A DNA stretch of 64,000 nucleotides from Streptococcus parasanguinis (GTDB lineage: Bacteria; Bacillota; Bacilli; Lactobacillales; Streptococcaceae). A model generated the notes under the pieces. It did not search any database, was not told where the DNA came from, and saw only the letters and a program-made list of their open reading frames with translations. The position numbers and the translations under genes were made by a program. Every line of letters starts with the position of its first letter. The first letter of the stretch is position 1. Of this stretch, positions 6,701-14,154 are shown one piece after another. The stretch lies in assembly GCF_031582885.1 (NCBI RefSeq), contig NZ_CP133988.1, positions 999,501-1,063,500 on the forward strand, written 5' to 3'.

Positions 6701-6875
6701 GAGGCTGGGATAGAAGTCCTAGCCTCTCAATTATTTTTGGATTGTCGAGCAAGACGCAGTGGTTGAGTGGGCTCTACTACGCTGATTTCATCAGCTTTTA
6801 CAGCCCTACTCAACTGTGCGGAGGTGGGACGACGAAATCGAATTCTAACGAATTAACGATTTCTGTCCCACTCTC
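6701..6875 (+). repeat. 175-bp interspersed repeat R, copy 1
   Basis: Fills the ytgP-metC gap together with the metC promoter region. It begins GAGGCTGGGA and ends TGTCCCACTCTC, which pair as imperfect terminal inverted repeats. Inside are a terminator-like hairpin (GAGGCTGGG...CCTAGCCTC), a long central hairpin (GTTGAGTGGGCT...AGCCCTACTCAAC) with inner GCTGA/TCAGC, and a third (GAAATCGAATTC...GAATTAACGATTTC). Copies at 13903-14077 and 62575-62749 have exactly the same length and differ at few positions. No ORF inside. It probably acts as terminator for ytgP. Confidence 0.85.
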
Positions 6876-6985
6876 TTTTCTTATAGTTTGAAACTATAGC
6901 TAGGTCTTGAAAATGGGAAAACCGCTCTCCTCATAATAGTGATAAAATAGTAATCAGTTAGATTGAATGTTTATCGGAGGGCAAT

Positions 6986-9251: not shown

Positions 9252-9280
9252 TTGACTTTCTGTAAGTGAAGGAGTACAAT
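9252..9280 (+). promoter_or_regulatory. mgtA promoter
   Basis: TTGACT (9252-9257), 17-bp spacer, TACAAT (9275-9280). It lies four bases after the patB stop and directly before the M-box. Confidence 0.8.
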
Positions 9281-9288
9281 AAACTCGA

Positions 9289-9430
9289 AATACGGTAGGT
9301 GAGGCTACCACAAGGATACGGATGACTACCGCAAAGCAGTGGAGACACTACTCGTTGGTCAACAGTCCTGATCGCAAAGGTCAAGACTAAGCTCATTTCA
9401 TTGCCTTGCGGAGCTAAAGCTTGGACGGTC
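9289..9430 (+). ncRNA. M-box magnesium riboswitch
   Basis: The leader contains the M-box landmarks in order: GGTAGGTGAGGCTACC, ACAAGGATACGG, TTGGTCAACAG and GAGCTAAAGCTTGG. The element folds compactly when Mg2+ is bound and favours termination. A strong terminator sits at 9475-9507 and the next large gene is a Mg2+ P-type ATPase, exactly the expected context. It occupies the patB-mgtA gap, which otherwise has only the leader ORF at 9541-9630. Confidence 0.88.
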
Positions 9431-9474
9431 AGTTTTTTGAGAGTTTTGATTGAAAAATAAATGACGAGTTTCAT

Positions 9475-9507
9475 GAGTCCTACCGATCGAGGGTAGGACT
9501 CTTTTTT
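9475..9507 (+). terminator. M-box expression-platform terminator
   Basis: GAGTCCTACC / GGGTAGGACTC arms around GATCGA, followed by six T. Readthrough would require low Mg2+. Confidence 0.85.
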
Positions 9508-9540
9508 ATGACTTACCAAGAAAAGAGAAAGGAGAGAGCT

Positions 9541-9630
9541 ATGATACAAATCGATGATCATCCCGAACCGCACCGAACCAGCCAATCGCTGATTTGTGTC
9601 GTAGGGACTCTAAAAGTGATTGGCTCCTGA
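9541..9630 (+). CDS. Candidate leader peptide of mgtA (29 aa)
   Basis: ATG at 9541 follows a strong AAAGGAGAG Shine-Dalgarno. The frame runs 29 codons to TGA at 9628-9630, 18 bases before the mgtA start. The early residues read IDDHPEPH: acidic residues alternating with prolines, the kind of sequence that destabilises translating ribosomes at low Mg2+ in the enterobacterial MgtL leader. Within and around it, 9580-9587 can pair with 9618-9625 (AGCCAATC/GATTGGCT) and 9546-9552 with 9591-9597 (ACAAATC/GATTTGT); these two pairings exclude each other. Translation and function are inferred. Confidence 0.5.
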   Translation: MIQIDDHPEPHRTSQSLICVVGTLKVIGS

Positions 9631-9648
9631 TTGAAAAAGGAGATACCA

Positions 9649-12309
9649 ATGCAAACAAATAAAGAAAGACTCATTGCTGCTCTTCAAGAACCACTTGAAA
9701 GCACCTTTGCCACCTACAAAACCAGTGCCCTTGGTTTAGTTGACGATCAAGTAGAAGAAAACCGCGATATTTATGGCGAAAATGTCATCACAAAAGGTCA
9801 AGAAGATTCTATGATCAAAAAGATCTATGAATCGATCATCAATCCTTTTACAGTGATTTTGTTGGTCATTGCGCTGGTTTCCTTCATCACTAATGTCTGG
9901 CTAGCAAAACCAGGTGAACAGGATCCAACGACCTCCATCATCATTGTGACCTTGGTCCTGATCTCTGGTGGTATCCGCTTCATTCAAGAATTGCGGAGCG
10001 ACAAAGCAGCTAGCAACTTATCACGTATGATTGTCAATACAGCGACCGTTCTGCGTGATGGAGCGGAACAAGAAATTCCGATCGATGAAATCGTCGTAGG
10101 AGATGTGATCAAACTAAGTGCCGGCGATATGATTCCAGCAGATGTGGTCTTGATTGATTCCCGTGACTTCTTTGTCCAACAATCTGGCCTCACAGGGGAA
10201 AGTGATGCTGTTGAAAAGGTTTGTCTCAGAAAAGCCGCCAGTCAAAATCTAGACAGTCTCTTGGAGAGTGAAAGCTTGGCCTTCATGGGAACCAATGTCA
10301 TTTCTGGACGGGCGACAGCCTTGGTCTTGGTCGTGGGGGATGAAACCATGATGGGCGCCATTGAGCAAACCATCAACACCTATGACGAACCAACCTCATT
10401 TGAGAGAGAAATGAATACCATCTCTTGGCTCTTGATTCGGCTCATGTTAGTGATGGTGCCCGTTGTCTTTGTGATCAATGGCCTAACAGATGGTGACTGG
10501 TTAGAAGCGGGTGTCTTTGCCCTCAGCGTTGGGGTTGGTTTGACTCCTGAAATGTTGCCGATGATTATTACAGCGAGTCTTGCTAAGGGCTCCATCATCA
10601 TGGCCAAGGAAAAAGTCGTTATCAAAAAACTCAATGCCATCCAAGACCTCGGCGCCATCGATATTTTGTGTACTGATAAGACAGGTACTTTGACCCAAGA
10701 TGAAATCGTTTTGGAGTATCCGCTTGATATTCATGGCGATTTGGATCTATCAGTCCTTCGCCGGGCTTACTTGAATTCCTATTTCCAAACCGGGCTAAAA
10801 AATTTGATGGACCGGGCGATTATCAATCGGACCCAGAAAGAAGCCAAGAAACATGAGATTGTTCGCGATCTGGATCAAACTTTCCATAAGATTGATGAAT
10901 TACCCTTTGATTTTGAACGTCGTCGCATGAGTGTCATTGTCAAAGACGAAGACGGTGTGGTCAGCATGGTGACCAAGGGTGCCTTGGAAGAAATGCTTTC
11001 TGTATCGACTTATGTTGAGTATAAGGGAGAGATTAAACGCCTGACAGATGAAGTCCGTCAAGAGGTCCTCGCTGAAGTTGCTCAATTAAATGAACAAGGT
11101 CTTCGTGTTTTGGGAGTCAGCTACAAAACCGACTTGGACGAAAATGACATCTTTAGTGTTGAAGATGAACGAGACATGATCCTAACCGGTTACCTTGCCT
11201 TTCTTGATCCACCAAAACCTTCTGCAGCTCCCGCTATCAAAGCTCTTGCAGAATATGGCGTAACCACCAAGATCTTAACTGGGGACAATGAAAAGGTAAC
11301 CCAAGCTGTCTGTGAAAAAGTAGGGCTAGATGTAGAGCGGATTCTTTTGGGAAGCGAAATCGATACGATGACTGACCAAGAGTTAGCACAAGTTGTGGAA
11401 ACAACAACGGTCTTTGCCAAATTATCACCAGATCAAAAAGCGCGGATCATCGTCTGCCTCAAGAACAATGGCCACAAGGTTGGTTACATGGGAGATGGGA
11501 TCAACGATGCTCCATCTATGAAGGTGTCAGATGTCGGGATCTCTGTGGACACCGCTGTGGATATTGCCAAGGAAACAGCAGATGTCATCCTTCTAGATAA
11601 GGACTTGATGGTCCTTGAAAAAGGTTTGGTTGAAGGCCGCAAGGTCTATGCCAATATGACCAAGTATATCAAGATGACGGTCTCTTCTAACTTCGGGAAT
11701 ATCTTTTCTCTTCTCTTTGCCAGCATCTTTTTGCCCTTCCTTCCAATGGCTCCTGTTCATTTGATTGTGCTCAATCTTATCTATGATCTTTCTTGTATCG
11801 CCCTTCCTTTTGACAATGTCGACAAGGAATTCCTCAAGAAACCTCGTATCTGGGAAGCAAACTCCATCATGCGCTTTATGGCCTGGATTGGTCCAATTTC
11901 ATCTGTATTTGATATTATTACCTACATGCTTCTTTATTTCCTTGTTGTCCCAATGATTTTAGGTCATGGCTACAACCATGGAGCAGCAGATGCAGCAGCC
12001 TTTATCATGGTGTTCCAAACTGGATGGTTTATTGAATCTATGTGGTCTCAAACCATGGTTATTCATATGTTGCGTTCACCAAAACTTCCATTTATCCAAA
12101 GTCGTCCAGCCTTCTCAGTCGTGGTGACGACTCTAGCAGCAGCCTTCTTTGTAACCTCCCTTCCATATAGTCCTTTGGCTTCTATCTTGAAGTTGAGCCA
12201 ACTAAATGGATTGTACTTTGTTCTATTGTTTGCGATTATCGTCCTCTATATGCTTAGTGTGACGGTTGTCAAACGTATCTATATTAAGAAGTACAAAGAA
12301 TGGTTGTAA
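9649..12309 (+). CDS. mgtA: Magnesium-importing P-type ATPase MgtA
   Basis: 886 aa P3-type ATPase that imports Mg2+. Motifs in order: LTGESD (actuator), CTDKTGTLT with the phosphorylated Asp, the nucleotide-binding KGALEE region, and GDGINDAPS at the hinge. About ten membrane segments, with six after the cytoplasmic catalytic part. An in-frame TTG at 9631 would give six extra residues, but AAAAAGGAG at 9634-9642 is placed for ATG 9649. Upstream M-box, terminator and leader ORF indicate layered control by Mg2+. Confidence 0.93.
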   Translation: MQTNKERLIAALQEPLESTFATYKTSALGLVDDQVEENRDIYGENVITKGQEDSMIKKIYESIINPFTVILLVIALVSFITNVWLAKPGEQDPTTSIIIVTLVLISGGIRFIQELRSDKAASNLSRMIVNTATVLRDGAEQEIPIDEIVVGDVIKLSAGDMIPADVVLIDSRDFFVQQSGLTGESDAVEKVCLRKAASQNLDSLLESESLAFMGTNVISGRATALVLVVGDETMMGAIEQTINTYDEPTSFEREMNTISWLLIRLMLVMVPVVFVINGLTDGDWLEAGVFALSVGVGLTPEMLPMIITASLAKGSIIMAKEKVVIKKLNAIQDLGAIDILCTDKTGTLTQDEIVLEYPLDIHGDLDLSVLRRAYLNSYFQTGLKNLMDRAIINRTQKEAKKHEIVRDLDQTFHKIDELPFDFERRRMSVIVKDEDGVVSMVTKGALEEMLSVSTYVEYKGEIKRLTDEVRQEVLAEVAQLNEQGLRVLGVSYKTDLDENDIFSVEDERDMILTGYLAFLDPPKPSAAPAIKALAEYGVTTKILTGDNEKVTQAVCEKVGLDVERILLGSEIDTMTDQELAQVVETTTVFAKLSPDQKARIIVCLKNNGHKVGYMGDGINDAPSMKVSDVGISVDTAVDIAKETADVILLDKDLMVLEKGLVEGRKVYANMTKYIKMTVSSNFGNIFSLLFASIFLPFLPMAPVHLIVLNLIYDLSCIALPFDNVDKEFLKKPRIWEANSIMRFMAWIGPISSVFDIITYMLLYFLVVPMILGHGYNHGAADAAAFIMVFQTGWFIESMWSQTMVIHMLRSPKLPFIQSRPAFSVVVTTLAAAFFVTSLPYSPLASILKLSQLNGLYFVLLFAIIVLYMLSVTVVKRIYIKKYKEWL

Positions 12310-13902: not shown

Positions 13903-14077
13903 GAGGCTGGGACAAAAGTCCTAGCCTCTCAATTATTTTTGGATTGTCGAGCAAAACGCAGTGGTTGAGTGGGCTCTACTACGCTGATTTCATCAGCTTT
14001 TACAGCCCTACTCAACTGTGCGGAGGTGGGACGACGAAATCGAATTCTAACGAATTACCATTTTCTGTCCCACTCTC
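13903..14077 (+). repeat. 175-bp interspersed repeat R, copy 2
   Basis: Occupies most of the clpP-ylbG gap. Same 175-bp length, terminal GAGGCTGGGACA/TGTCCCACTCTC inverted repeats and three internal hairpins as the copy at 6701-6875. It differs from copies 1 and 3 by a few substitutions, for example ACCATTTTCTG near the right end. It probably ends clpP transcription. Confidence 0.85.
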
Positions 14078-14154
14078 TTTTTTGCTCTCATAAAAGAGTA
14101 GTTCTTTTTCTTGAAATTTGATATACTAGTAACAGAACGAGAAAGGGATTGACC

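Follow-up and report, generated by a model that had tools for sequence, protein, structure and literature searches.

A putative ribosome-based Mg2+ attenuator behind the M-box riboswitch of mgtA in Streptococcus parasanguinis and its relatives

Mg2+-dependent destabilisation of the ribosome is known from enterobacteria as a means of sensing this ion. In the leader peptide MgtL, ribosomes lose stability on acidic and proline codons when Mg2+ is low and mgtA is turned on, with control usually exerted through Rho-dependent termination (PMC11282234, PMC11552253). Salmonella mgtQ is an acidic upstream open reading frame (uORF) of eight codons in which stems 1:2 and 3:4 alternate with stem 2:3 and mgtB is controlled at translation; this precedent is experimental, and a start-codon mutant of mgtQ lowers mgtB (PMC8092293). 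The corL-corA leader of E. coli and Salmonella also combines a uORF with alternative structures in the leader of a Mg2+ transporter gene, and its output is Rho-dependent (PMC11552253). In Mycobacterium tuberculosis, the pe20 M-box is likewise followed by a small conserved uORF (uORF2/Rv1805A) located before Mg2+-related genes, but there the M-box itself controls uORF translation and Rho termination, and the peptide is specific to mycobacteria (PMC12810186). We found no streptococcal, lactobacillal or other Firmicutes/Gram-positive precedent in the open-licence literature, although a report that we have not seen may exist.

Here we describe the mgtA leader in a window of 64,000 nucleotides from Streptococcus parasanguinis. 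The host genome is a single contig of 2.14 Mb and the mgtA product is 99% identical to a Streptococcus parasanguinis protein. A sequence-only reading of the window had proposed an M-box riboswitch with its terminator before mgtA, followed by a 29-codon ORF with a strong ribosome binding site that ends 18 nt before the gene. All of these features were recovered, at the positions collected in Table 1. The M-box match covers model positions 1-169 and its score compares with a gathering cut-off of 44 bits; the genome contains one M-box copy. Together with the intrinsic terminator that forms its expression platform (9284-9507), the aptamer is an ordinary member of RF00380; the leader ORF with its switch is not part of the riboswitch. 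An Rfam search of positions 9442-9760 at E<=5 returned chance matches only, and the leader ORF and its switch match no family. A single copy of the DDHPEP coding pattern is present in the genome. The acidic and proline-rich stretch IDDHPEPH noted earlier is present, though as residues 4-11 of a peptide that opens with MIQ and not as its very start.

Table 1. Features of the mgtA leader and gene, in window coordinates
Feature	Position	Strand	Basis
Sigma-70-type promoter, TTGACT-17-TACAAT (predicted)	9252..9280	+	Consensus scan, 10/12 matches
M-box (ykoK) Mg2+ riboswitch aptamer, first sensor	9284..9441	+	Rfam RF00380, 89.8 bits, full length
Riboswitch intrinsic terminator, 10-bp stem 9475-9501 and T run to 9507	9475..9507	+	Terminator scan
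Leader ORF Shine-Dalgarno (SD) sequence, AAAGGAG	9528..9534	+	Sequence; kept in relatives
Leader ORF (uORF), 29 codons and stop, MIQIDDHPEPHRTSQSLICVVGTLKVIGS	9541..9630	+	Sequence; conserved in streptococcal mgtA leaders
IDDHPEP codons, proposed ribosome-destabilising acidic/proline motif	9550..9570	+	7 synonymous vs 1 non-synonymous variant types
Segment 1, including leader start codon; partner 9590-9604 (helix 1:2)	9539..9553	+	Fold; core 7 bp 99% paired in 16 sequences
Segment 2; 9580-9590 partners segment 3 (helix 2:3), 9590-9604 partners segment 1	9580..9604	+	Fold, co-variation
Segment 3; 9615-9625 partners 9580-9590, 9619-9628 partners segment 4	9615..9628	+	Fold; three pairs changed on both sides
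Segment 4; mgtA SD AGGAG 9638-9642 and CCAAT 9646-9650 overlapping mgtA start, within helix 3:4	9638..9650	+	Fold
mgtA, Mg2+-translocating P-type ATPase, 886 aa, ATG at 9649	9649..12309	+	TIGR01524, 1071 bits, cut-off 611

By analogy, the closest known system appears to be Salmonella mgtQ-mgtB rather than MgtL. Both have a short SD-bearing uORF with a strong SD and conserved acidic codons near its start, directly 5' of the gene for a Mg2+ P-type ATPase, and in both the alternatives are stems 1:2 and 3:4 or stem 2:3, with the transporter SD computed here to lie in helix 3:4; a translational output is what we propose for the streptococcal leader. The low mgtB of the mgtQ start-codon mutant parallels the OFF state computed here for the ribosome-free leader. 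The two differ in length and setting: mgtQ, with 8 codons, is intergenic in an operon driven by PhoP, whereas the present ORF, with 29 codons, follows an M-box in a 5' leader, its hosts lack Rho and its sequence is unrelated to mgtQ; we assume convergence and do not claim descent. With MgtL the leader shares its location upstream of mgtA, alternative stems and an acidic/proline start (EPDP in MgtL, DDHPEP here), a composition that fits the proposal that destabilisation at low Mg2+ switches mgtA on here too. The likeness to MgtL suggested by the sequence-only reading holds for this composition and fails for the Rho-dependent output: a profile search of the genome for Rho gave at best 38.8 bits, with the cut-off at 509, and a Rho-based MgtL mechanism was rejected. 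We claim no sequence or structural homology to MgtL. The gene for bL31 is present in the genome. Because the genome lacks Rho, and with mgtQ as the better model, we propose that the leader attenuates translation in the manner of mgtQ, with sequestration of the mgtA SD as its output.

We consider it likely that the mgtA mRNA carries two controls in series, the M-box and then the leader ORF as a Mg2+-responsive translational attenuator. At high Mg2+ the M-box would abort transcription at its terminator, and the transcripts that read through would carry the attenuator. In a leader that is free of ribosomes or fully translated, helices 1:2 and 3:4 would form and hide the mgtA SD and start. At low Mg2+ a ribosome would pause or fall off at the DDHPEP codons, as expected because 70S ribosomes are then less stable; with segment 1 covered, segment 2 would become free to form helix 2:3 with segment 3, and the mgtA SD would be released. 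We infer that the leader ORF is translated, and streptococcal ribosomes are probably destabilised at DDHPEP; that Mg2+ is also the signal of the second stage is suggested by analogy with MgtL and MgtQ and by the gene context.

Conservation of the ORF was examined in the window and 80 further mgtA homologue loci, using 200-420 nt upstream of each gene. A leader ORF was recognisable in 79 of these 81 leaders, the exceptions being L059, which is masked by N, and L081 from Granulicatella, which is without an accepted SD pattern yet carries MPEPDSKQ. Both L081 and L032 were missed by our SD/composition rule and taken from the upstream sequence; the L032 type was found by the rule elsewhere. In the great majority of the 81 leaders the peptide starts with M(I)QIDDHPEPH, and an acidic/proline start is retained in the divergent ones: MQIDDYPEPH in sanguinis, MQIDDHPEPDT in L029, MQIDDHTEPDPN in L037, MPNDDHPSQQ in S. 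intermedius (L032), MPEDGHPEK in S. massiliensis (L041), MLSDDYSEKP in L031, MSSDDHPISQQ in L082 and MPNADSEP in Abiotrophia (L079). An M-box is present in 133, and the coding pattern DD[HY]PEP in 136, of 247 Streptococcus genomes; by hand comparison of the two tables, the pattern lies within about 1 kb downstream in about 123 of the 133 M-box genomes. The M-box streptococci without this pattern mostly have the divergent leader forms just listed. DDHPEP, the start region and the stems are kept throughout the M-box streptococci, which is the conservation that the earlier interpretation had called for.

Two modes of constraint are apparent along the ORF. Over 19 distinct haplotypes, the one non-synonymous variant type within the IDDHPEP codons is His to Tyr, and in the absence of coding constraint the 7:1 split in favour of synonymous types would have a probability of 6e-5 to 8e-4, each variant type being counted as an independent event. 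Beyond residue 11 the amino acids drift; L012 has a leader of 18 residues, and L037 reads the conserved bases CAGCTGATCGCTGATTTG in a different frame, while the RNA pairs persist. Given this early synonymous bias and the later drift, early stop and frame change, the start of the leader is kept as peptide and the remainder as RNA. A conserved peptide start could also belong to a functional small protein, for instance one acting on MgtA, and small proteins of enterobacterial Mg2+ transport, MgtR and MgtU, exist (PMC8092293). However, the drift after about residue 11, with one species stopping at residue 18 and another shifting frame, disfavours such a function, and the peptide has no family match; we regard it as very unlikely. 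Short ORFs are common, and one could in principle fall by chance on a structured leader, but conservation, synonymous bias, the SD and recurrence across families contradict this idea, to which we give almost no credence.

The stems of the leader were also followed at the RNA level. The two mutually exclusive stems of the sequence-only reading are exact complements, although each proved longer than described, at 11 bp for helix 2:3 and 15 bp with G-U for helix 1:2, which hides the leader's own start codon. A third helix, 3:4, in which the fold pairs part of segment 3 with the mgtA SD and start, had been missed. Helix 2:3 is mutually exclusive with both 1:2 and 3:4. In the folding model, helices 1:2 and 3:4 together would represent the OFF state, with the mgtA SD and start hidden, and helix 2:3 the ON state; we infer this direction. 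In 16 diverse sequences the helix 1:2 core and helix 2:3 were 95.8% paired, and sliding the partner segments against each other lowered pairing to 18-44% in a control on the same sequences. The downstream hairpin of the mitis group is longer and has a different sequence, and it again covers the SD in the predicted fold.

Repeated sequences were encountered in and around these leaders. An element of about 105 nt (TACTCTTCGAAAATCAAATTC...GATTTTCATTGAGTA) lies inside the loop of the pre-SD hairpin in L033, L040, L044, L047, L050 and L053, and the stem is intact. In L077 (S. mitis) MQIDDHPEP is retained and the rest of the leader is rearranged by a repeat insertion, possibly representing a decaying switch. 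Elsewhere in the window, positions 6727-6891 and 13929-14093 contain near-identical intergenic ORF pairs (MSSKTQWLSGLYYADFISFYSPTQLCGGG..., with MSRAVKADEISVVEPTQPLR on the other strand), which constitute a repeated intergenic element.

The earlier suggestion that the stems relay ribosome position to mgtA was borne out computationally. A 31-nt ribosome footprint was masked at each leader codon and the probability of an unpaired mgtA SD was calculated. In the window this accessibility rose from 0.17 on the ribosome-free leader to 0.37-0.41 when codons 3-8 occupied the P-site, and was back at 0.17 once the P-site had passed codon 8. The open interval coincides with the IDDHPE codons, which in this model would be the place where destabilisation acts; masking does not separate pausing from drop-off. 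DDHPEP consists of two adjacent acidic residues and one more, and is weaker than typical long acidic runs. Similar opening was obtained for most leaders examined. Compared with dinucleotide shuffles, nine of 12 representative leaders had p<0.05, and a Fisher p of 9e-6 was obtained for 8 divergent leaders; these p-values are optimistic because the scored codons were picked after the first profiles were known. By this calculation the SD opens modestly in the window, the opening in the mitis group is narrow, and masking opened no SD in L032 and L079. In a wider set, the SD opened at early codons in 21 of 31 leaders and not in the other 10. The switch was very clear in L174 (0.03/0.96), L163 (0.02/0.99), L143 and L165; L174 and L163 show the same behaviour in other families with unrelated sequences. 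The centre of the open window did not correlate with the centre of the acidic residues (rho 0.12); in a post hoc comparison its end correlated with the first acidic residue (rho 0.52, p 0.017).

These profiles bear on another explanation, in which the ORF merely couples translation or keeps the leader unfolded, the stems set a constant level of mgtA and regulation is left to the M-box alone. Coupling is common in operons, and the 18-nt gap in the window would permit re-initiation at mgtA. However, this gap ranges from 18 to 158 nt across leaders, the computed SD opening is limited to early codons, and selection acts on the first ten residues at the peptide level; we consider coupling quite unlikely.

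Translational attenuation in series with the M-box implies two devices, and some genomes place them apart. In genomes of the sanguinis/cristatus type, a gene of 203 amino acids starting with MK[FL]WYSSTSPFARKVYA lies between the M-box and the leader ORF, which are then about 800 nt apart; loci with this insertion (start MKFWYSSTSPFARKVYA) are L013, L019, L098-L101, L105, L107 and L110. By inspection the inserted gene looks like a glutathione S-transferase, and it is presumably under control of the Mg2+ riboswitch. The leader ORF remains directly before mgtA despite the insertion, and because it stays with mgtA the M-box and the leader can be regarded as separable modules.

Acidic ORFs behind M-boxes recur in other Bacilli. 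Homologues of mgtA in other Lactobacillales mostly have an M-box, and behind it there is frequently an ORF whose start is different yet acidic, such as MDDSSSK, MDDSPSKK, MEEEQEQ, MEAPSPEP, MPQFLEDDPAEP, MRSLMIENDNSD, MEKSSSNDSPGDD and MSHRQEDELEEPD. In the rest of the Bacilli, MEGSPSSQ, MDSSPSNP, MDGDPRSY, MDSDSRSY and others were found after M-boxes, some of them preceding MgtE-like genes (named by inspection of the first residues). In one streptococcus (L083), an ORF starting with MDNSPVPEPSLIVK lies about 400 nt after the M-box and before an MgtE-like gene, a leader of this type in front of another transporter family. We collected all SD-preceded post-M-box ORFs of Lactobacillales and Bacillales without sequence selection (non-redundant n=48). 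Of the 48, 27 have at least two acidic residues in positions 2-11. The corresponding share was 14.7% for shuffles (p 3e-11), 23% for the genes downstream and 10% for control ORFs taken from the same loci. SD-preceded ORFs numbered 0.78 per post-M-box segment vs 0.23 in shuffles. A number of M-box loci across the Bacilli showed no such ORF by our search rule, and for several Bacillales and non-lactobacillal leaders (L185-L212; MEGSP, MDSSP, MDGDP and MDSDS types) no SD switch was predicted. Several of the leaders without SD switch outside Lactobacillales have stretches of seven T behind the ORF, suggestive of terminators, and these might indicate transcriptional attenuation.

Another possibility is that the attenuator responds through DDHPEPHIH to charging of His- or Pro-tRNA or to EF-P activity and not to Mg2+. 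Mitis-group leaders have three His and two Pro within the first 12 codons, and Salmonella MgtP responds to tRNA-Pro (PMC8092293). However, the divergent leaders (MEEEQEQ, MDDSSQSE, MQIDDHTEPDP, MPNADSEP) keep acidic residues and not His/Pro, and all these leaders lie between a Mg2+ riboswitch and a Mg2+ transporter; since neither His nor Pro is retained from family to family, we disfavour this signal as unlikely. With Mg2+ retained as the preferred signal, we lean towards the broader view that M-boxes of Bacilli are commonly trailed by a second, ribosome-based Mg2+ sensor in the form of fast-diverging leader ORFs with acidic starts, before MgtA-type and some MgtE-type transporters. Such a two-stage gate would act on transcription and then on translation, with an origin independent of MgtL and MgtQ.

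If the streptococcal leader works in the proposed way, Gram-positive bacteria without Rho would follow the same logic as enterobacteria, on an mRNA that also carries a riboswitch for Mg2+. The ribosome would then have been recruited convergently as a meter of Mg2+, and M-box leaders in Bacilli would owe some of their length to this second device. The arrangement would also allow a clean test of why one sensor for this ion is not enough for a cell.
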